Virus record (IMG/VR): IMGVR_UViG_3300002144_000053
Coordinates: 1 to 24,852 of that record
DNA: 24,852 nt
Origin: a virus
Strand: one strand, 5' to 3'
The first letter of the stretch is position 1; each line of letters opens with the position of its first letter. The position numbers and the translations under genes are program-made. Below, one piece after another: positions 6,745 through 23,145 of the stretch. The notes below the pieces were generated by a model. That model saw nothing but the letters and a program-made list of their open reading frames with translations. It made no database searches and was not told the origin of the DNA.

Positions 6745-7887
6745 ATGGCTACTAGAAAACAAAAAAACGTTTACTTCACACCTGAACCAAAATGGGAAAC
6801 CTTTAAGAAACTTGTTGATCCTACTGAACAATCTAAGGCATATCAAGACTGCCAGTACTTTATCCGTACCGAAATCAATGATAAGAAACGCATCACTATT
6901 GCCAGAAAATGGATTAAAGAAGAATCAGATTGGGATGCTGGTGACATAGAGGTTATTCTCAGAAATCCAGATTGGACTTTTGGCTCTTCTTCAAGTGCGT
7001 TCTTTTTCAAAACAAAGGTAGGATACCTGCCTGAAGCAAATAGAAGCCATGTTGAGAAACTGTCAGCCGAATGGATAGACTCGGGTAATAAAATTCTACA
7101 AGAAAAAGAAGAGAAGATTAAAGACAGACCTAATCGACCTTCAATACAAGATATCATGCTAGAAAAGTTATTTGAAGCAGGCGGAACAATTGATGGTCTA
7201 ATAGATCAATGGATTGAAGATGAAATAAAACTTGACTTGAAATTTAATGCTCAAGTTATGAAAATCTTAAACGAGTACAATCCATTAGCAAACCATGTTC
7301 CTCAACTCGTCTCTGCTTATGAAAGAGAGAAAGCAGAATTTGTAGAAGTGTTATCTGGGAAAGATGAACAGTTAAATGAAGCATATAGCAATTTTAGTAA
7401 AACTAAAATCAAGCAAACAATAGGTCTTTATGATACTATTATTAGTCTGTTGAACTCTTATGCTACGTTGAAGATTCAATCTAGGGTAAAACGTAAGACT
7501 AAACCAATATCTCCAGAGAAGGCTGTATCTAAGTTAAAGTATCTAAAAAAGTTTACATGTGATCAAACCAAAATAACATTAGAAAGTGTCCGACCAACAG
7601 AACTGCACCACGCAAAAGAAGCATGGGTGTATGATACTGCAAAACGCAAACTGCACCACTATGTCGCAGATGAGTTTGCCGGCGAGATGTTTGTTAAAGG
7701 TAATACATTGCTTGGCTTTGACAAAGCAAAGAGTCAGATTAAGACTCTGCGTAAACCTAAAGAGCAACTCAAAGAAATCATGGGAAGCAAGCCTTCCGCA
7801 AGAACTTACTTTGACAAGATCAAAGCAGTAAGCATCAAACCTACTGGTCGTTTCAATGATGCTCTTGTTATCTTAAAGGCATTCTAA
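6745..7887 (+). CDS. Conserved marine T4-like phage protein of unknown function
   Basis: 380 residues; start set by GGGGA upstream of the ATG. I recognise the type from marine myoviruses but know no function. The N-terminal half is charged and helical, with a probable coiled coil about 110-140 and 200-240. The C-terminal ~120 residues carry the most conserved-looking stretch: KLKYLKKFT, then SVRPTELHHAKEAWVYDTAKRKLHHYV, KGNTLLGFDKAKS, LRKPKEQL, and a closing ALVILKAF. The protein is Lys-rich and has no signal or membrane segment. It lies divergent from gp14 and 33 bases before gp13, so a role in neck or head assembly is possible, but that is inference from position only. The frame at 6680 and its overlaps are shadows. 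Confidence 0.75.
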   Translation: MATRKQKNVYFTPEPKWETFKKLVDPTEQSKAYQDCQYFIRTEINDKKRITIARKWIKEESDWDAGDIEVILRNPDWTFGSSSSAFFFKTKVGYLPEANRSHVEKLSAEWIDSGNKILQEKEEKIKDRPNRPSIQDIMLEKLFEAGGTIDGLIDQWIEDEIKLDLKFNAQVMKILNEYNPLANHVPQLVSAYEREKAEFVEVLSGKDEQLNEAYSNFSKTKIKQTIGLYDTIISLLNSYATLKIQSRVKRKTKPISPEKAVSKLKYLKKFTCDQTKITLESVRPTELHHAKEAWVYDTAKRKLHHYVADEFAGEMFVKGNTLLGFDKAKSQIKTLRKPKEQLKEIMGSKPSARTYFDKIKAVSIKPTGRFNDALVILKAF

Positions 7888-12986: not shown

Positions 12987-13049
12987 ATGAAAAAACAACC
13001 AGGGTGTAACCCTCACAATCATACAAAAGGAAAATTATCATGGCACTAA
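12987..13049 (+). CDS. Possible 20-codon upstream ORF overlapping the gp18 start
   Basis: It would encode MKKQPGCNPHNHTKGKLSWH. Its ATG is at the predicted transcription start of the gp18 promoter, so it would be read as a leaderless ORF. It runs through the gp18 ribosome site (AAAGGAAAA) and ends at TAA 13047-13049, 7 bases inside gp18, in another frame. A role in tuning sheath translation is conceivable; it may also be chance. Confidence 0.35.
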   Translation: MKKQPGCNPHNHTKGKLSWH

Positions 13050-16000
13050 CATCACCAGGCGTAGAAGTAACCATCGTTGACGAGAGTCAATATTTGCCGG
13101 CCGCTCCGGCATCAATACCATTAATCGTATTAGCTACAGCAACAAATAAAGCAGACCCAACTTCAACAGGCATAGCACAAGCAACTACAGCGGCTAATGC
13201 AGGTAAAATGTACAGAATTACATCTCAACGTGATTTAGTTACTTTGTATGGTAATCCATTCTTTTACACATCGGGAGCCGGAACACCTATTCAAGGCTAC
13301 GAGTTAAATGAATATGGTTTACTTGCGGCTTACTCAGCACTTGGCATTAGTAACCAAGTTTTCTGTTTAAGAGCAGACATTGATCTAGCAAGTTTAGTAG
13401 GATCAACAGGTCGTCCAACAGGAGCACCAACAAACGGCGCTTACTGGGTAGACACAACAAATTCAACTTGGGGTATTAACGAGTTTAATGCAACAACTGG
13501 AGCATTTACTGCAAAGTCTCCGATCGTTCTTACTGACCTAACATCATTGGTAGGCGGCGTGGCAGGTGGTGCACCATTACAATCAATCGGAACTATCGGT
13601 GACTATGCAGTTGTAGCGTTATTTAACTACAATCAACCTACTGCTACTACTGCACCACAATATTACTACAAAAATACTAACAATGCTTGGATAGCAGTAG
13701 GTTCTAGTGCATGGCAAAATGCATGGCCAACACTTCAAGGCACTGTGGCTAATCCTACTTTAACACAAGGCGACTCTTTTGACATCATTTTAAGTGGTAC
13801 AAACAGTGCAACTATTTCTATTAGTGCAACTAACACATTAGCACAAGTTGTTTCTGATATCAATGCATTAGGTTGGGAATATCTTACAGCATCTTCAGCT
13901 AACAGCAAATTAACACTTTACTCTGCTCAAACAGGTGGCGACGATTCTCCTTACTTTATTAGACTTAACAACGGAGTAGGTACAGTTCTTGCTGATTTAG
14001 GTTTCTCTCAAGCAGTTACTACCAGTCAACAACCACAATTAACATATGGTACATCTGCTCAACAGCCATTATGGCAGTCAGGTCAGAACGCACCAAAACC
14101 AACTGGTTCAGTATGGATTAAAGTATCAGGAACTGGATTACAGCCTGATGTCTCTACATACAACAGTGCTACAGCAAATTGGGTAGCTAAAACCCCAACA
14201 TTTGCAGAATCTGACTGGGCTCAAATTTATGCGGCAGACTCAACAGGTGGCGGAGCAATCCCAGCTGGTTCAGTTTATGCACAATATGCATTCGATGGCA
14301 ACGCCTTCTCAGCAGGTCCAGTATACTTATGGTATCGTTCTGCAACAGGCGCAACAACAATTACAGGTAACAACACAACTCCTGACTTTACTTCTGGTCC
14401 TTATGTTGGTAAAGTACAAATTACTACACCAGGTGTTTCTGGTATAGGTGGTGCATTTACAATCAACTTAGCTGATGCAACTGATGCAACAGACTTTGTT
14501 ACTGCATGGTCTGGCGCAGGTATTCCAAACACAACTGCTGTTGTCAATGATGACGGATCAATTTCTTTATCACACACCAAAGGTGGTGTTATTGTATTAG
14601 ATGACTATGATGCATCAACAGGCGTTTCTAGTGGTTTATTCACAGAAGCTGGCTTTATTGCAGGTACAACAACAGGCTGTAAGTATGGTCCTTTCAAAAA
14701 TGACATTACATTCACTCCTGCTACTACAGCATCTGCTTCAGGTACTGGCTTTATTCCGAGTGTTACAAACAACTACCAACAATATGATTTTGACCCTGAC
14801 ACATTCTCAGTTCCAGGAACTGGCTACGCAGTAGGAGAGACTGTTACTATCTTAGGTACAGCATTAGGCGGAGCTACCCCTGCTAACGATTTAGTACTTC
14901 GTGTTACTAACGTTACTGCTGGTGTCCCAACTGGTGTTACATTGGTATCAGGTACAGGCGCGGCCTCTTATAAAGTACAATTGTCTAATTGGCAAGCACT
15001 ATCAACAACAACTTCAGGTGCTAACTCAATTACATCAAACGAAGGCGCTCCAACAGCGATCCCTACTAACTTGACTAACTGGTACTATTCAGCAACTAAT
15101 CAAGTTGATATTATGATTAACTATAACGGTGTATGGAGTGGCTACAAGAATCAAGGATATGATTCAAATGGCTTACCAAGTCCATCAGTAGCAAACGTAA
15201 CTGATTCTAAAGGACCATTAGTAGCTGCCACTGAGCCAACACTACAAAGTGACGGAACAGCATTAGAGTACGGTGATCTTTGGATCGACAGTTCTGACTT
15301 AGAAAACTATCCTGTCATTAGAAGATGGCAGTCAGTGACAAATGTTGACCAGTGGGTCTTAATAGACAATGCTGATCAAACTACACAACAAGGTATTTTA
15401 TTCGCTGACGCACGTTGGGCAACTAACGGTACAACTAACCCAGCAAACGATCCTATTCCAAGTATTGTATCAATGCTAACATCTGGTTACTTAGACGTAG
15501 ATGCTCCTTTATCATCAAATTCCCCAACAGGTATGTTACTTTGGAACACCAGACGCTCAGGTTACAACGTTAAGCAATACAGAGTTAACTACTTTAATGC
15601 TGACAGATTCCCTTCACCAGCAGTACTTCCTGCTCAAAAGGATGCATGGGTAACGGCTTCAGGCTTACAAGCAGACGGTTCACCTTATATGGGTCGTAAA
15701 GCACAAAGAGCAATGGTTGTTAAAGCATTGAAGTCCACTATTGATAGCAACACTGCTATTAGAGATGATGATAACTTCTTTAACTTACAAGCAACACCTA
15801 ACTATCCAGAACTACAACCTAACATGATTTTGTTGAACGCTGATAGAGGTGAGACCTCATACGTTATTGGCGATACACCAATGAGACTGAAAGATGACGC
15901 AACTGACATTCAGGCTTGGGCAACTAACGCTGTTGGCGCAACTGGCACTGGTGAAGATGGACTTGTAACTAGAAATACTTACATGGGTCTATTCTATCCA

Positions 16001-16633
16001 TCAGGAATCACAAACGACTTAGCAGGCAATACTGTTGCTGTTCCTTCATCACACATGATGATCAGAACTATGTTACGCAACGATAATATTGCTTATCCTT
16101 GGTTAGCTCCAGCTGGAACTAGACGTGGTATCATTGACAATGCTTCAAGCATTGGTTACATTGATGCACAATCTGGTGAGTTCCAAGTCATTAGAACACG
16201 TGTTGGTATTAGAGATGTGTTATACACAAACTTTATCAACCCAATGGTATTCTTCACAGGTAACGGCTTACTGAACTATGGTAACAAAACATCATTCGAT
16301 TCAGCATCTGCACTTGATAGAGTTAACGTAGCACGATTAGTTGCTTACATACGTAGACAACTGATTATTGCTTCAAGACCGTTTGTATTTGAACCAAACG
16401 ATCCACAAACAAGAAAGTCTATCTCAGCAGTAGTAGAAACATTATTCCAAGATTTGATTTCAAAGCGTGGATTATATGACTACTCAGTAGTTTGTGACGA
16501 GTCTAACAACACTCCAGCAAGAATTGATAGAAACGAACTTTGGATTGATATAGCAGTTGAGCCAGTCAAAGCGGCTGAATTTATATACATTCCAGTGAGA
16601 ATCTTTAATACTGGTGAGTTATCAGGTTCATAG
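13040..16633 (+). CDS. 18: Tail sheath protein gp18, greatly enlarged
   Basis: 1197 residues against 659 in T4. The N-terminus (MALTSPGVEVTIVDESQY) and the C-terminal ~380 residues (LLWNTRRSGYNV, MMIRTMLRNDNIAYPWLAPAGTR abridged, YIDAQSGEF, LNYGNKT, VARLVAYIRRQL, RPFVFEPND) are the conserved contractile sheath core. About 120-750 is a block of inserted domains: GAYWVDTT (133-140), a segment at 238-322 and another at 457-545 that look like flagellin hook-IN motifs (TISISATNTLAQVVSDINALG and the GSISLSHTKGG part), GTGYAVGETVTILGTALGG (593-611), and GDLWIDSSDL (745-754). These should decorate the outside of the tail. It has the AAAGGAAAA ribosome site and a late promoter, and is followed by a hairpin. 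Confidence 0.93.
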   Translation: MALTSPGVEVTIVDESQYLPAAPASIPLIVLATATNKADPTSTGIAQATTAANAGKMYRITSQRDLVTLYGNPFFYTSGAGTPIQGYELNEYGLLAAYSALGISNQVFCLRADIDLASLVGSTGRPTGAPTNGAYWVDTTNSTWGINEFNATTGAFTAKSPIVLTDLTSLVGGVAGGAPLQSIGTIGDYAVVALFNYNQPTATTAPQYYYKNTNNAWIAVGSSAWQNAWPTLQGTVANPTLTQGDSFDIILSGTNSATISISATNTLAQVVSDINALGWEYLTASSANSKLTLYSAQTGGDDSPYFIRLNNGVGTVLADLGFSQAVTTSQQPQLTYGTSAQQPLWQSGQNAPKPTGSVWIKVSGTGLQPDVSTYNSATANWVAKTPTFAESDWAQIYAADSTGGGAIPAGSVYAQYAFDGNAFSAGPVYLWYRSATGATTITGNNTTPDFTSGPYVGKVQITTPGVSGIGGAFTINLADATDATDFVTAWSGAGIPNTTAVVNDDGSISLSHTKGGVIVLDDYDASTGVSSGLFTEAGFIAGTTTGCKYGPFKNDITFTPATTASASGTGFIPSVTNNYQQYDFDPDTFSVPGTGYAVGETVTILGTALGGATPANDLVLRVTNVTAGVPTGVTLVSGTGAASYKVQLSNWQALSTTTSGANSITSNEGAPTAIPTNLTNWYYSATNQVDIMINYNGVWSGYKNQGYDSNGLPSPSVANVTDSKGPLVAATEPTLQSDGTALEYGDLWIDSSDLENYPVIRRWQSVTNVDQWVLIDNADQTTQQGILFADARWATNGTTNPANDPIPSIVSMLTSGYLDVDAPLSSNSPTGMLLWNTRRSGYNVKQYRVNYFNADRFPSPAVLPAQKDAWVTASGLQADGSPYMGRKAQRAMVVKALKSTIDSNTAIRDDDNFFNLQATPNYPELQPNMILLNADRGETSYVIGDTPMRLKDDATDIQAWATNAVGATGTGEDGLVTRNTYMGLFYPSGITNDLAGNTVAVPSSHMMIRTMLRNDNIAYPWLAPAGTRRGIIDNASSIGYIDAQSGEFQVIRTRVGIRDVLYTNFINPMVFFTGNGLLNYGNKTSFDSASALDRVNVARLVAYIRRQLIIASRPFVFEPNDPQTRKSISAVVETLFQDLISKRGLYDYSVVCDESNNTPARIDRNELWIDIAVEPVKAAEFIYIPVRIFNTGELSGS

Positions 16634-16721: not shown

Positions 16722-17372
16722 ATGGCAACAGCCTCAGATACATTAAGAAATCTTTCGGTACAACCCGAAGATGGGAGCAATCAAGGCTTATTGATGCCTA
16801 AACTTCAATATAGGTTCCGTGTGAACTTTATTGATTTCGGAGCACAAGGCGATGATCAAGGAGCATTATCATTGACTAGACAAGTTATTGATGCCGCTCG
16901 TCCTCAAGTACAATTCGACGAGATTACATTGAATGCATATAATTCACGTGTATATCTTGCAGGTAAGCATACTTGGCAGCCTTTATCAATCAACGTCAGA
17001 GACGATGCTTCTGGTTTAATATCAAAAGCAGTTGGAGCTCAGTTACAGAAGCAATTAGACTTCTTCGAACAAGCATCAGCGGCCTCAGGTCAAGATTATA
17101 AGTTCTCTACAGAGATTCAAATTTTAGATGGTGGTAATGGCGTTAATGCACCGACTGTATTAGAAAACTGGTCATTAGCAGGTTGTTTCTTACAACAAGC
17201 AAACTATCAAACATTGAATTACGGTACTTCAGAAGCAGTTACTATTGCATTAACGATTCGTTTCGACAACGCAATTCAGACAAATGGCAACGGTGACTTA
17301 GCATCTTTACCTGGAGCAGGCGTAGGACAATCTGGTTTACAATCTACTCGTACACCAACTGGTACTGTTTAG
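16722..17372 (+). CDS. 19: Tail tube protein gp19
   Basis: 216 residues (T4 gp19 is 163). The protein follows the tube fold in order: the first beta strand in LQYRFRVNFIDFG, the loop and strand QVQFDEITLNAYNSRVYLAG, HTWQPLSINVRDD, a helix LQKQLDFFEQASAA, ENWSLAGCFLQQANYQTLNYG and the closing strand AVTIALTIRFDNA. Compared with T4 it has an N-terminal extension and a Gly/Ser/Thr-rich C-terminal tail. Tube subunits stack as hexamers inside the sheath and form the DNA channel. Its place directly after gp18 is the T4 order. It has its own late promoter with TAGGAG and a strong terminator, suited to a high-copy product. Confidence 0.9.
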   Translation: MATASDTLRNLSVQPEDGSNQGLLMPKLQYRFRVNFIDFGAQGDDQGALSLTRQVIDAARPQVQFDEITLNAYNSRVYLAGKHTWQPLSINVRDDASGLISKAVGAQLQKQLDFFEQASAASGQDYKFSTEIQILDGGNGVNAPTVLENWSLAGCFLQQANYQTLNYGTSEAVTIALTIRFDNAIQTNGNGDLASLPGAGVGQSGLQSTRTPTGTV

Positions 17373-17473: not shown

Positions 17474-17497
17474 ATGCCAATTGAAGGGACAATGTAA
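17474..17497 (+). CDS. 7-codon mini-ORF coupled to the tube-like gene
   Basis: It would encode MPIEGTM. It has its own ribosome site (AAGGAAA, 17461-17467) and its stop overlaps the next start as TAATG (17495-17499). A second ribosome site for the downstream gene, GAAGGGA, lies inside it. The arrangement suggests a leader peptide with translational coupling, but expression is unproven. Confidence 0.4.
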   Translation: MPIEGTM

Positions 17498-18552
17498 TGA
17501 CAACATATCTGCGTGATTTTAGACATGCCTCTAAAATATTTTTACCAAATAGTCAGAGTAATTCTCCTAAGGTTAAATTTTTATTTCATGCATATTTTGA
17601 AATTAACGAACAGGCATACAAGCCTCCTACTGGCGATAACTTTGGTATTCTTGTTAAGTCAGTTAAACTTCCTTCTTTTAAATTTGATACAGAAATAATG
17701 AATCAATATAATAGAAAAAGAATTATTCAAACTAAAATTAAATACGATCCAATAGAAGTTGTATTCCATGATGATAACCAAAGTCAAATGACAGCTATGT
17801 GGAATGCGTACTATCAATATAACTATGCTGACTCTGTTAATCAGACTGATGTACTTGGCGTGGCCAAAGCCGGCGTTGGTGCAAAATACCAAGCCAGAAA
17901 CATTTACAATCCTTCAATTGAAGGAGATGATAATTATGGTTATAGGGGTGGATCAACACAAGAAGACGGTACAAAAATTCCCTTCTTCAAAGATATTACA
18001 GTGTTTGGCTTTTGGCAACAGAACTTTCTTGCTTATACGTTAATTAATCCAATCATTACAAGTTTCGCACACGATACATATGATTATGCTGAAGGTGGTG
18101 GCGTCATGTCTAATACGATGACACTAGATTATGAAACTGTTACCTATAACACAGGTAAAATGGATGCCGCATCTCCTGAACTTTTTGTTACAGGGTTTGC
18201 TAATAATGCAAACTATGATAGAACAGAAAGCCCATTAGATTCTTATGCTAGTAATAGTCCTACCTCATCTCCTATAGGAGATACAGCCAGCGGCGCATAT
18301 GATAATCAAAACACTCAGGTAAGACCAAGTTCAGTATCTATAATAAATCAAGGCTTGAAGTCGGCCTTGGCGGCTAATCAGTCCAATAGTCCAAATACTA
18401 GAACACCTTCTGCAACTGCATTTTTTCCGACTAATGCGTCTAGTCCAACAGACATAAACCAAGCTAATCAGGGACAACCAACTGGGTCAAACAATAACAC
18501 AGTAGTTGACGCACCTCGAACAGCAGGTGTGCAAGTTACAGGTAATAGATAA
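17497..18552 (+). CDS. Tail tube-like (gp19/gp54-type) structural protein
   Basis: 351 residues. The first ~230 look like a tube-fold protein: KVKFLFHAYFEINE, FGILVKSVKLPSFKFDTEIMNQYNRK (abridged), YDPIEVVFHDD, a helix MTAMWNAYYQYNYAD, and the closing strands ITVFGFWQQNFLAYTLINPI and MSNTMTLDYETVTYN. This is the order seen in gp19. The remaining ~120 residues are Ser/Asn/Pro/Thr-rich, low-complexity and probably disordered. A likely job is the first ring of tube on the baseplate (T4 gp54 role) or the tail-end terminator ring; the sequence does not decide. It follows gp19 after a terminator and new promoter, and shares TAATG with the next gene. Confidence 0.75.
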   Translation: MTTYLRDFRHASKIFLPNSQSNSPKVKFLFHAYFEINEQAYKPPTGDNFGILVKSVKLPSFKFDTEIMNQYNRKRIIQTKIKYDPIEVVFHDDNQSQMTAMWNAYYQYNYADSVNQTDVLGVAKAGVGAKYQARNIYNPSIEGDDNYGYRGGSTQEDGTKIPFFKDITVFGFWQQNFLAYTLINPIITSFAHDTYDYAEGGGVMSNTMTLDYETVTYNTGKMDAASPELFVTGFANNANYDRTESPLDSYASNSPTSSPIGDTASGAYDNQNTQVRPSSVSIINQGLKSALAANQSNSPNTRTPSATAFFPTNASSPTDINQANQGQPTGSNNNTVVDAPRTAGVQVTGNR

Positions 18553-18929: not shown

Positions 18930-19376
18930 ATGGCACGAAAACAAAAGTATGCTCAAGGGCTATACGAAGTAAAAAACATAAAAAAGTATGTAGGTAAGGG
19001 TAAGCCCAAGTATCGATCAGGCTGGGAACTTACATTTATGATCTTCTGTGATACAAATGATAAGATCATCACCTGGGCCTCTGAATCAATGGCCATTCCA
19101 TATCGTCATCCTTTAGACGGTAAGGTACATAAGTATATTCCAGATTTCTTTATTGTTTACCAAGACAAATCAGGTAAAGTCAAAGCAGAAATTATAGAAA
19201 TAAAACCAAAAAAACAAAGTATTATAGAAAGTAAAGTTGCTAATGCAAAAGATAGAGTAACAGTGGCAATTAATCATGCTAAATGGCAGTCTGCTAATGC
19301 ATATGCTAAGTCACAGGGGTTAGTATTCAGAGTAATTACTGAAGATGATCTTTTCTACAACGGTAGGGCAAAGTAA
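18930..19376 (+). CDS. 4: Head completion protein gp4 (TnsA-like nuclease fold)
   Basis: 148 residues, almost the length of T4 gp4 (150), and collinear with it: KNIKKYVGKGKPKYRSGWE, IITWASESMAIPY, KVHKYIPDFFIVYQD, EIIEIKPKKQ, a helical stretch with AINHAKWQSANAYAKSQG, and FRVITEDDL. The elements E33, P71-D72 and E90-I-K92 form a PD-(D/E)xK nuclease-type signature as in TnsA. In T4, gp4 acts late in head completion, after packaging, making the head competent for tail joining. It follows the previous gene by 12 bases (AAGG as weak ribosome site). Confidence 0.9.
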   Translation: MARKQKYAQGLYEVKNIKKYVGKGKPKYRSGWELTFMIFCDTNDKIITWASESMAIPYRHPLDGKVHKYIPDFFIVYQDKSGKVKAEIIEIKPKKQSIIESKVANAKDRVTVAINHAKWQSANAYAKSQGLVFRVITEDDLFYNGRAK

Positions 19377-19388: not shown

Positions 19389-19874
19389 ATGACTAAAAAA
19401 CTTGAAGAATTGTTTGATATTGCGTCTCAGGACGAGAATGAGTTGAATGAACCTATTCCAGGCGTAGCAAGAGAAGTTACACGAGAGGCACTTAGTAACC
19501 TCGAGAAAATAGAAACAGCATTGCCTACAGTACGAGGTTTAGAAGCATCTGACCAAGAGTTAGATCATTTAGCACAGTTAGCACAAACAAGTTTTCAAGA
19601 CCTTATGGATTTAGGTATGCAAGTAGATTCACGTTTTAGTGGAGATATCTTTAGTGTTGCGAGTAACATGTTAAATCATGCTATCACTGCTAAAACTGCT
19701 AAACTAAACAAAAAATTAAAGATGATCGATCTACAGTTAAAGAAGGCAACATTAGATCAACGTCAAGCAAAAGTTGATGAAAAAATTGATAATATCCCAA
19801 TAGGAGACGTTGGACAGACTCTGGATCGCAACGAGTTACTACGACTATTATCTGGCAAAACCTCACAGGAATGA
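19389..19874 (+). CDS. 16: Probable terminase small subunit (gp16-like)
   Basis: 161 residues (T4 gp16 is 164). The predicted architecture fits gp16: an acidic N-terminal segment, a central pair of long helices (ELDHLAQLAQTSFQDLMDLG and IFSVASNMLNHAITAKTAKL, abridged, parallel to T4 FATLMGQMTTTNREILKL), a Lys/Leu helix KKLKMIDLQLKKATLDQ, and a polar C-terminal tail. gp16 forms rings that recognise DNA and stimulate the gp17 motor. Sequence identity to T4 is low, so the call leans on pattern and on similar proteins of marine myoviruses. Oddly, gp17 does not follow; the gene sits after gp4. There is no ribosome site. Its TGA stop overlaps the next late box. Confidence 0.6.
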   Translation: MTKKLEELFDIASQDENELNEPIPGVAREVTREALSNLEKIETALPTVRGLEASDQELDHLAQLAQTSFQDLMDLGMQVDSRFSGDIFSVASNMLNHAITAKTAKLNKKLKMIDLQLKKATLDQRQAKVDEKIDNIPIGDVGQTLDRNELLRLLSGKTSQE

Positions 19875-19902: not shown

Positions 19903-20523
19903 ATGAGAAGTCTTAAAAAATTTATTGCAGAAAGCATTCACACTTATGATTACACAATCAAAGTGGCAGGTGATGTTAACAAAAACTTCTTAGAGTTGTT
20001 CAAATACAACCTAGACAAGTTCTCACCTATAGAAATTAAAGGTCCAACATCAACCCCAATTCAAAAAGATCCATATGGATTTCCAAATTTACACGATGAA
20101 CCCGTGCATATTTTTAAGTGCAAATTTGCATATCCTTGCACTGAACCAATGGTTCAGCAGATGGCTCAGTTGTTAGGTCACAACGTTAACTATGTAAGAA
20201 TGATCGATACTGCATACAATGATAGCATCAACAAAGAAGTAGATCAATACGAAAATCAAATGTCACATACTCCTGTTTTAGATCACACTGAACTAGAAGA
20301 TAACGGAAAAGATGCCGCTAAAGAGTATGGTGATAAATATTTAAACAGCATCAAAGATCAAACCGAAGATCAAAAGAAAGTAGGTCTACCTGTTGATCAA
20401 AAGAATACTAAAGACTCGTTTGATCCTTGGAAGCCTTGGACAGATGATCAGCAAGGCGGAAACAAGAGTCCGATGACTGATATTAAACGAGGCCCTAAGC
20501 CGGCAACGTCAGCAGGATTATAA
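19903..20523 (+). CDS. Putative internal head protein with T4-type capsid-targeting N-terminus
   Basis: 206 residues from the ATG at 19903. A longer frame from 19810 is rejected because it overlaps the upstream gene and the late box. The N-terminus MRSLKKFIAES matches the T4 internal-protein capsid-targeting sequence MKTYQEFIAEA in length and in the FIAE block, with a small residue after Glu as required for cleavage by the gp21 prohead protease (I-x-E then Ala/Gly/Ser). This suggests a protein packed in the prohead, cut after E10 and possibly injected with the DNA. The centre (YTIKVAGDVNKNF, VHIFKCKFAYPCTEPMVQQM) may be a small alpha/beta domain; the last ~90 residues are polar and disordered-looking. 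It precedes the acidic protein by 12 bases. Function is otherwise unknown. Confidence 0.65.
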   Translation: MRSLKKFIAESIHTYDYTIKVAGDVNKNFLELFKYNLDKFSPIEIKGPTSTPIQKDPYGFPNLHDEPVHIFKCKFAYPCTEPMVQQMAQLLGHNVNYVRMIDTAYNDSINKEVDQYENQMSHTPVLDHTELEDNGKDAAKEYGDKYLNSIKDQTEDQKKVGLPVDQKNTKDSFDPWKPWTDDQQGGNKSPMTDIKRGPKPATSAGL

Positions 20524-20535
20524 AGGAAAAAAACA

Positions 20536-23145
20536 ATGGATTTTAAAAACATACTCAATCAATTAGACAGCATCAACGTTGTTGAAGCTCCTAAACGTAG
20601 ACCTGTAAGCCCCTCAGGAGCTCCTAAGCAGCCTTTAAACGAATCTGTTGCTGTTGCTACAAAATCACCAAGACCATCATTGCGAGACGTGTTCAACACT
20701 CTTTTAGAAAATGATATCACAATGGAGCCTGCAAAGCCAGGAGCCATGGCAATCAAGTCAGGCGATAATGTTATCGGAACCGCACACACTCCTCAAGCCG
20801 CTAATCAAATGAAACAAGCGATTGATAAAGGTGAAATCACAATGGGTGCAGAAGAAATACAAGAAGCCGAAGATTGGATTGATGGAGCAGTTAAGAAGCC
20901 AGGCGCTTTCAAAGCACAAGCAGAAAGAGCAGGAATGTCTACAGCGGCATTTGCTAAACACGTCTTAGCACACAAAGCCAAGTTCAATGCTAAAACAGAA
21001 AAAAGAGCAAACCTTGCTCAAACATTTAGCAAGATGGATGAAGCCAAGTCTCCATCTCAACTAATGAGAGACAAAGCAAAAGCAGACGTAAAACGTGATG
21101 ATAAAGCAGAAAAAGCAGGCAAAGAAGTCGCTAAAGATGCTAAGTATGATGGACGTAAACACCCAGGTAAAGATGGTAAAGAAGTTGCTAAAGACATTGA
21201 ATATGATGAATGGAAAGAAAAGAAGCTACCAAGCATTTCACGTATCAAAAAAATGTGTAAAGATGGACTTAACCAAACTGAAATTTTAAAACTGCACTCT
21301 ATGTGCGACAAACCGAAACTAAAAGATATGATTAAAAAATGCAAAACAAATTTAAAAGAAGGTGTTGACCACATTCTTAAAGCGGCTAAGCACATGGGTA
21401 AATCTCATGGTCTATGTAAAGGCGGATATGCGTGTCCACACGAAACAGGTTCTGAAGGCCATAGAGCATACCACGAAGGCTACAAAGAAGGCCTAGACGA
21501 GTGTATGGGGATTCGTAACGAACCCGTTCTTGGAATGGTAGACGAAACTGAAGGCAAAGTAGTAGACACTATGGCATCATACGGTGCGATGGGTGAAGAC
21601 GAAACTTACGAAGGCAATGCTTTCACTGGTGCTCTTGCAAGTACTGCAAAAGGAGACACTTTCAAAGTAGGTGGAAACACTTACAAAGATACTTCTTCCT
21701 TAGAAGAAGCAAACAAAGATGCTGGTGATTACGACAAGTACGATTGGAATGCATCTACAAAAGCTGACAGAACAGATGAATGGGCTTTTGAATCTTTAGA
21801 AGCAGAACTAGAGTCTCTTTTAAACGAAGATAAAGTAGAAGAAGGTGTTAATATTTCTGTATCTTCAGGTCAAGACAATCAACCAGATTCAGTCTCAGTT
21901 AACGCAACTGACGATGAAGCATCAAAATTAATTCAATTTGTTAAATCAGTAGGTCTAGGTATCTACGGTGATGAAGAAGTTGAAGCCGAAGTTGTAGAGC
22001 CAGGCGAAGTATCATTCTATGGTTCAGAAGCTCCATCAGAAGAGCCTCAAGGTTCACATGATGACATGCTCAAGTTAATGGGTATTGTTGATATGGGTGA
22101 TGAAGGTGAAGAAGATTATGCTGACGAAGAAACTACTGGTTCACATGACGAACATTTACCAGTCGTAATTGATGCAGATTCAGAAGAAGAAATGTGCGAA
22201 GCATGTGGAACAAAAATGACTACTGAAGGTTGTGGTTGTTCTAAGACTGACGAAGGCGCACAATACGGCCCAGACGATGGTTCACACAATTCAATAAACG
22301 ACAGAGACGGCAATGACGCAACTAACGCGGCATTAGCATCACAAGAAGCCGGAACACCTCAACTTGTAAAAGAGAAGCATGAGTCAGAAGCAGAAGAAGA
22401 CGATCATGCAGAAGAAGCAGGCGAACGTTATCATAGCGAAAAAGTCAAAGACGAAGACGAATATGATGATAAAGAAGACAAAAGTAAATACAGTGACGAT
22501 TGGAAGCGACTTCAGAAAGAGCATCCTGCAATGGGCAACAAGTCTGATTGGAGCAAGACTGACGAAGATAGTCATCTAAAAGAAATGATGTCTATGCTTT
22601 CAGAAGTTGGTTCAGAAGCATCAGAAGAGCCTACACAGCCTCTTTCACAGCACGATGATGACAACTTAACAACAGAAGGCGCAGAAGACGCTCCTGCTGA
22701 TGACTTAGATGGATCAGTAGAGCCTGTAACTGAAACTCAAACTGAAGATCAAAAAGAATTCGCAGTAGCAGAATCTGAAGAAAATGACTTAGAAGAAGGT
22801 AAGATACCCGCAGGTCTAAAAGCATACCAAGATAAAAAGAAAGGTAAGAAAGACGATTCTGAGAAAGATGTTAAAGAAGAAGAAGAAGAACTTACTGAAT
22901 GGGCCAACGATGCTGGTAAGAAAGGCACAGACACTTCATTCGAGCAAGACATCGACTTTATGACTAAAGTAATCTCAGGTGGACTTAACAAGCAGAAATC
23001 AACAGGTCAAACAACTATTCCAGTTATTGCAGGTCAAAATGATCGCACTGGCTACAATGGTGCTGACTTAGTTAAAGAAGGCTCTGTTATGTCACACGAT
23101 GGACTAGCAAATTTAATGAATAGACTTGATTATCTTAGTAAGTAA
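20536..23145 (+). CDS. Large acidic low-complexity protein, possible prohead core or internal protein
   Basis: 869 residues, with AAAGGAAA before the ATG. The N-terminal third is Lys/Ala-rich (DKAKADVKRDDKAEKAGKEV around 179-198) with two partial repeats of GKEVAKD (195-201, 214-220). A Cys/His-rich patch follows (C294, C300, H302, H309, H313, C323). Residues 434-476 form a small folded-looking unit (EEGVNISVSSG, DSVSVNATDDEASKLIQFVKS abridged). The rest is dense in Glu/Asp, with the cluster C554-x-x-C557 and C566-x-C568. A short N-terminal leader ending NVVE-A, or LLE-N at 56-59, resembles prohead-protease sites only loosely. High acidity suits a T4 gp67/gp22-like core component, a scaffold for cleavage, or a packaged protein. 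No T4 homologue is recognised. Confidence 0.7.
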   Translation: MDFKNILNQLDSINVVEAPKRRPVSPSGAPKQPLNESVAVATKSPRPSLRDVFNTLLENDITMEPAKPGAMAIKSGDNVIGTAHTPQAANQMKQAIDKGEITMGAEEIQEAEDWIDGAVKKPGAFKAQAERAGMSTAAFAKHVLAHKAKFNAKTEKRANLAQTFSKMDEAKSPSQLMRDKAKADVKRDDKAEKAGKEVAKDAKYDGRKHPGKDGKEVAKDIEYDEWKEKKLPSISRIKKMCKDGLNQTEILKLHSMCDKPKLKDMIKKCKTNLKEGVDHILKAAKHMGKSHGLCKGGYACPHETGSEGHRAYHEGYKEGLDECMGIRNEPVLGMVDETEGKVVDTMASYGAMGEDETYEGNAFTGALASTAKGDTFKVGGNTYKDTSSLEEANKDAGDYDKYDWNASTKADRTDEWAFESLEAELESLLNEDKVEEGVNISVSSGQDNQPDSVSVNATDDEASKLIQFVKSVGLGIYGDEEVEAEVVEPGEVSFYGSEAPSEEPQGSHDDMLKLMGIVDMGDEGEEDYADEETTGSHDEHLPVVIDADSEEEMCEACGTKMTTEGCGCSKTDEGAQYGPDDGSHNSINDRDGNDATNAALASQEAGTPQLVKEKHESEAEEDDHAEEAGERYHSEKVKDEDEYDDKEDKSKYSDDWKRLQKEHPAMGNKSDWSKTDEDSHLKEMMSMLSEVGSEASEEPTQPLSQHDDDNLTTEGAEDAPADDLDGSVEPVTETQTEDQKEFAVAESEENDLEEGKIPAGLKAYQDKKKGKKDDSEKDVKEEEEELTEWANDAGKKGTDTSFEQDIDFMTKVISGGLNKQKSTGQTTIPVIAGQNDRTGYNGADLVKEGSVMSHDGLANLMNRLDYLSK

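Follow-up and report, generated by a model that had tools for sequence, protein, structure and literature searches.

The open reading frame at positions 19903-20523 (+) of the viral DNA analysed here (24,852 nucleotides, hereafter the window) encodes a protein of 206 aa, the target of this analysis, which begins MRSLKKFIAES and probably serves as a conserved structural prohead component in a marine Rak2-like (T4-related) jumbo phage. It would enter the prohead by means of a leader resembling the capsid-targeting sequence (CTS) of phage T4 and, in the clade of the window, would be trimmed after E10. If true, this provides a mechanism, a targeting helix with an optional gp21-type cut, for a conserved jumbo-phage structural protein of hitherto unassigned role, and the T4 head-loading code reaches distant uncultivated relatives of T4.

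The proposed route has four steps. A ten-residue amphipathic helix would, like the T4 CTS, use residues 4, 7 and 8 to dock the target on the scaffold core, and during head maturation of phages of the window clade an S77 (gp21-type) protease would cut after E10, leaving a mature protein that begins at S11. The mature ferredoxin-like domain and its acidic flexible tail would be retained by the virion as a minor structural protein of the head; virion presence is taken from orthologues, and the position within the particle is putative. The adjoining acidic, site-rich protein would be a second core component acted on by the same protease.

Start codon and leader

The original prediction held that the leader mirrors that of the T4 internal proteins (IPs), including I-x-E and a small residue after it, and this observation is confirmed. 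The open reading frame and its leader are real, and the leader is in register with MKTYQEFIAEA of ipII and ipIII in the T4 sequence record. M1 is the correct start, because similarity among relatives begins there, while the frame ahead of it either is unrelated or is interrupted by stops; a longer start offered by the ORF finder, TTG at 19810, is without conservation. Residues 1-10 (MRSLKKFIAE, 19903..19932, +) are predicted to form a CTS-like helix and propeptide, with the putative cut after E10 falling between 19932 and 19933, and the only [LIM]xE[ASGTN] site of the protein is at residue 10. A strict leader, with T4-spaced hydrophobic residues, the glutamate and a small residue, is expected by chance in about 0.13% of genes (0.58 of 429). 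A single such match in a window of around 30 genes is not decisive alone, and it is conservation that makes the case so.

Conservation in the window clade

Relatives of the target are encoded by 341 stretches found on scanning IMG/VR and by 535 found in a second, profile-based scan; the 160 relatives fetched for leader statistics represent 82 distinct proteins. I8, E10 and S11 (I-x-E-S) are invariant in 82/82 of these, residue 4 (L/F) and residue 7 (Y/F) are always hydrophobic, and residues 6 and 9 vary freely in the entropy profile, giving a clade consensus of M-[KR]-S-[L/F]-[KR]-x-[Y/F]-I-x-E-S, from which only residues 2 and 3 depart, and rarely. The serine at residue 11 is encoded by either of its codon families (72 AGY, 10 TCN), and both GAA and GAG are used for E10. 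According to a review of the T4 work, ten residues of the CTS suffice for head targeting, and mutagenesis assigns residues 4 and 7 to targeting and residues 8 and 10 to processing (PMC9026906); these are exactly the positions that the window clade keeps. The suggestion that the leader is a T4-type capsid-targeting and processing sequence thereby gains support by inference. The body of the protein is conserved as well, at 55-85% identity in a 36-sequence alignment of the family with a mean column identity of 73%.

Family identity and presence in virions

Judged by sequence chains and gene order, the target is a syntenic orthologue of a conserved virion structural protein of Rak2-like jumbo phages, phrog_14802, and over the whole open reading frame (19903..20523, +, 206 aa) corresponds to CBB_210, GAP32_204, RaK2 ORF047, 121Q 557 and PA5oct gp282. 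The window protein itself matches phrog_14802 at only E=0.038 (residues 1-158) and gave no match by tblastn against 50,697 phages. A relative used as query (L078) reaches PA5oct (E=4e-5) and Atu_ph07 (E=6e-6), and the orthologue in Vibrio phage 2.275.O connects to CBB, RaK2 and 121Q at E 3e-30 or better and to phrog_14802 at E 3e-53; XbC2 and GAP32 also hold orthologues, reached via the PA5oct/Atu_ph07 chain. The window and Rak2-like phages share the gene order dNMP kinase, sheath, tubes, gp4, phrog_16202-type neighbour, target and acidic structural proteins, and target orthologues are spread across phages of very different hosts.

CBB_210 was found by mass spectrometry of CBB virions with 13 unique peptides and 60.5% coverage (PMC5259590), and PA5oct gp282 carries the annotation ESI-MS/MS, i.e. 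it was detected in virions. Presence in the virion is thus shown for these two orthologues and would extend to the window phage by homology. The RaK2 paper is silent on processing of ORF047. The start annotated for gp113 of Atu_ph07 (NC_042013.1; L151:10001-10756) lies 29 codons late and omits the conserved leader MKTLQDYLTES.

Distant orthologues

The nine distant orthologues, eight of which were aligned (GAP32 was omitted, having the same leader as CBB), share with the window clade homology, gene order and the hydrophobic residues of the start helix, and differ from it in that the invariant I-x-E-S belongs to the window clade only. Vibrio 2.275.O (MKDLNTILTES) and Atu_ph07 retain the glutamate followed by serine; CBB and GAP32, identical over the leader (MNKLQKILTEL), and 121Q (MNRLQQILTEK) retain E10 and have L or K, not a small residue, at P1'. 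E10 is lost in 4/9, namely RaK2 (MINLQKILTDN), XbC2 (MNKLQKILTDL), PA5oct (MKSFRDYYDAS) and Phosso (MKNFYEYLSSV). The expectation that the leader would be conserved in homologues consequently stood for the window clade and failed for the cut site in these four, a loss which, together with the P1' residues of CBB, GAP32 and 121Q, counts against the explanation favoured here.

Positions 4, 7 and 8 are nevertheless hydrophobic or aromatic in all nine. The D10 carried by the RaK2 and XbC2 orthologues is the same change that in T4 blocks processing and leaves targeting intact (PMC9026906). From the loss of the cut site alongside retention of the docking residues in RaK2, XbC2, PA5oct and Phosso we conclude that targeting is likely to be the older property, with trimming a lineage-specific or optional addition.

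Protease and cut sites in related phages

The 24.9 kb window is itself without a protease or capsid gene, and the data on both come from relatives. Two long ones, G007 (352 kb) and G013 (250 kb), have a T4-type head cluster comprising portal, a small gp68-like protein, an acidic gp67-like protein, S77 protease, gp22-like scaffold and gp23. Identification of the target as the missing gp67 or gp68 was rejected, the candidates for these sitting between portal and protease in both relatives. A gp21-type S77 prohead protease is present in 9/9 phage genomes examined (G007, G013 and seven named phages); its LxE specificity is presumed from capsid and scaffold sites.

The major capsid proteins of all nine genomes carry a putative cut site, (L/F)xE immediately ahead of the conserved start of the mature protein: LLAE/SSAG, LLSE/SSAG, MLRE/SATAG, MLTE/SATSG, ALFE/SATAG, QLME/SATNG, FLVE/NASAG, PLME/TATAG and PLME/NATAG (the slash marks the predicted cut). 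Those of RaK2, PA5oct and Phosso keep the site, though the target orthologues of these phages lack theirs. Counts of [LIM]xE[ASGTN] were compared with those in shuffled sequences, a four-letter motif being only indicative for single proteins. By this measure the gp22-like scaffold heads the ranking in G007, G013, Vibrio 2.275.O, RaK2, CBB and Atu_ph07 and comes second in PA5oct, gp22 scaffolds having 9-19 sites, and the scaffold is also top in site excess among the T4 proteins tested. The sheath and tube proteins of the window have zero sites. This pattern supports reading the motif as a protease site with LxE specificity.

The scaffolds of RaK2 (MTKLEKLLKES), CBB (MSKLDKFLNES), 121Q (MSKLEKLLKES) and Vibrio 2.275.O (MSKLEQLLKES) begin, like the target, with M-x-x-L-x-x-[LF]-L-x-E-S, and this common N-terminal register is consistent with a scaffold-docking helix. 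The scaffolds differ from the target in having many sites and, in T4, the scaffold is degraded; the target has one site and its orthologues are retained in the virion.

Genomic neighbourhood

The gene is surrounded by genes for tail tubes, gp4 and other connectors, outside the gp20-gp23 core cluster. Upstream on the same strand are a tail sheath gene (13040..16633, +), gp18-like by synteny, two gp19-like tail tube genes (16722-17372 and 17497-18552, +), none of the three with protease sites, a T4 gp4-like head completion or head closure protein with a TnsA-like nuclease fold (18930..19376, +; phrog_218 E=8e-43, PF08722 E=8e-21) and a conserved neighbour, phrog_16202 (19389..19874, +), whose place is unchanged across the Rak2-like phages examined.

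Downstream, at 20536..23145 (+), is a protein of 869 aa and pI 4.6, a predicted prohead-core component and protease substrate. That an acidic protein follows the target was correctly noted at the outset, and the pairing of the two is supported by inference. The acidic gene follows the target in the relatives readable at that position. The protein has eight [LIM]xE[ASGTN] sites against 4.1 in shuffles (8-9 against 3-4 expected), and its homologues rank 2nd of 337 proteins in G007 and 4th of 214 in G013 for site excess. PA5oct gp281, in the same position, was found in virions, and the L197 homologue begins MKSLKEYFVEV, resembling the target leader. The acidic protein is highly variable in length among relatives, reaching 1630 aa (L064), with residues 113-167 forming a small block of conservation (phrog_20603).

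This setting gives the strongest rival its ground. The target could be a neck, connector or tail protein with an ordinary N-terminal docking helix and an uncut LxE, a reading which we regard as unlikely and yet as deserving real weight: the gene adjoins gp4 and tail tubes in relatives too, presence in virions is equally consistent with tail or neck, and RaK2, XbC2, PA5oct and Phosso lack the cut site in the target, even though a cut site persists in the capsid proteins of RaK2, PA5oct and Phosso. It does not, however, account well for I-x-E-S in 82/82 proteins with a free P2 residue and serine codon switching, for the absence of such sites from the adjacent tail proteins, for a next gene encoding a site-rich, core-like protein, or for the leader register common to the scaffold.

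Two further observations were made in the window. Between 8473 and 12300 there is a tandem duplication of around 1.9 kb (start-to-start 1914-1916, identity 94-99% over the blocks reported) holding two copies of a 428-436 aa ORF and of the start of the dNMP kinase, the first kinase copy being truncated; it may be either a recent genuine event or an assembly chimera. The ORF at 6745-7887 gives a near full-length match to phrog_11903 (E=5e-48); Pfam offers nothing for it beyond a sub-threshold match to HEPN.

Predicted structure and comparison with T4 proteins

Structure prediction by AF2, proposed as a check with the original prediction, yielded a ferredoxin-like domain and a low-confidence tail, and the fold offered no functional clue. 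The domain (beta-alpha-beta-beta-alpha-beta) is predicted for residues 11-102 (19933..20208, +); in the model (m0f67a97f5f33) it spans approximately residues 15-101, with pLDDT mostly 66-82 per block over 11-100 and a dip to 57 at 51-60, the N-terminal helix (residues 4-10) is at low pLDDT, and the mean of 62 for the whole protein indicates modest confidence. Residues 103-206 (20209..20520, +) form an acidic, low-confidence C-terminal tail of pI 4.8 with conserved FDPxKP and SPM motifs. The top PDB matches by Foldseek are generic ferredoxin folds of the ribosomal protein S6 type (query-normalised TM <=0.32), uninformative as to function, and a T4-like 'Ip7' among many generic matches (E=0.01) was set aside as evidence. 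A Pfam search of the target found no family and a PDB sequence search found chance matches only.

The target resembles T4 IPII and IPIII in leader length, the hydrophobic residues at 4, 7 and 8, E10 and the small residue 11. It differs in having a body that is not homologous to IPIII and is predicted to be ferredoxin-like, in being acidic (pI 5.7, charge -5; orthologues pI 4.6-5.3) where the T4 proteins are basic, and in being conserved where they are variable, since a family with 341 relatives at the identities given above is neither hypervariable nor patchy. Profile alignment, which was made with IPIII, covers residues 1-11 only, at a probability of 0.35%. The original prediction had proposed an injected anti-host factor, on the grounds that T4 IPs bearing this kind of leader are ejected into the host, where IPI blocks a restriction enzyme (PMC3012670). 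We consider this role very unlikely, because the target is acidic, conserved and fixed in position, in contrast to the basic T4 IPs, which are diverse (PMC3012670) and not highly conserved (PMC9026906); its orthologues occur in virions and across very different hosts, and it shows no IPIII homology beyond the leader and no informative Pfam or PHROGs domain.

Moreover, a leader of the CTS type marks prohead assembly and gp21 processing and not injection in itself, because gp24 (MAKINELLRES) and gp22 (MLKEQLIAEA) carry it too in the T4 record. The head vertex protein gp24 is like the target in leader register, in the serine at P1' and in being a structural virion protein cut by gp21; it differs as a pentameric vertex protein of 427 aa. 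T4 gp24 has an HK97 fold. By analogy, then, the target appears to act like a CTS-bearing T4 prohead protein and to stand outside the IPI-IPIII families. The same leader type occurs in T4 gp2, the DNA end protector (L367:16062-16886, -; MAIFQIINES). Homology of the target to gp2, which is a neighbour of gp4 in T4, was rejected (hhalign probability 0.1%, 13 columns).

Other leader-bearing proteins

The pattern M[RK]x1-3[EDQ][FIL][ILVF]xE, which was built on G007 and G013 and tuned by eye, matches 9/429 ORFs of G007 against 0.15 expected (0 or 1 when E is replaced by other residues) and four of G013 against 0.04 expected. Applied to the window and ten further contigs of the group, it matches 15/839 ORFs against 0.31 expected (with E replaced by S 3, by D 1 and by the rest 0); all these statistics come from uncultured contigs with a crude gene caller and from related genomes that are not independent. 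RaK2, CBB, Vibrio 2.275.O and Atu_ph07 have 0 or 1 matches, near chance, and PA5oct has three. The 28 leader-bearing proteins, among them the target of contig G004 (MRNLKQFIAES), form 14 families without similarity of body, one with 12 members, and leader variants across at least 14 families include MRAxEF[IVL]xE, MKISQIIQET, MRFNQILSES and MRISEILTES.

That the T4 resemblance of the target is due to chance, with IxES arising by accident in a short amphipathic start helix, is the least credible of the explanations: at the chance rate of the strict leader one per window is conceivable, but 82 proteins are invariant exactly at the T4 functional positions, the capsid-protein sites match, and similar E-requiring leaders are in excess in the ten contigs outside pattern building.

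The leader-bearing loci are found in G007 at 102342-103108, 188672-201220 (L160, L164, L165) and 223343, several of them clustering at 188-201 kb, and in G013 at 148174-148943, 230077 and 234283, with similar loci in G001, G006 and G008-G012. Going by sequence, these families would be better candidates than the target for packaged cargo. We suggest tentatively, as a possibility a little short of probable, that a portable T4-CTS-like leader (MR-A-x-E-F-[IVL]-x-E together with the ten-residue form of the target) marks unrelated proteins of marine and freshwater Rak2-like jumbo phages for prohead loading, processing and perhaps injection, with the target family recording how docking is kept as the cut site comes and goes. 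No description of capsid-targeting leaders in Rak2-like phages was found in the literature searched, coverage of which was incomplete. If the suggestion is true, genome-wide reading of leaders gives a short testable list of proteins carried in jumbo-phage heads or injected.

Some of these proteins have recognisable likenesses. Three (G007 194866-195735 and 195732-196604; G013 131403-131762) look ADP-ribosyltransferase-like by eye (HYTG/YHAT...), which would parallel T4 Alt, and Pfam, PHROGs or PDB sequence searches gave no confirmation of this where tested. Next to the two in G007 is a leader-bearing amidoligase-2-like protein (196615-198993; PF12224 E=7e-10), and beside its gene, at 198995-199861, lies that of a leader-bearing GH19 glycosidase (PF00182 E=1e-12).
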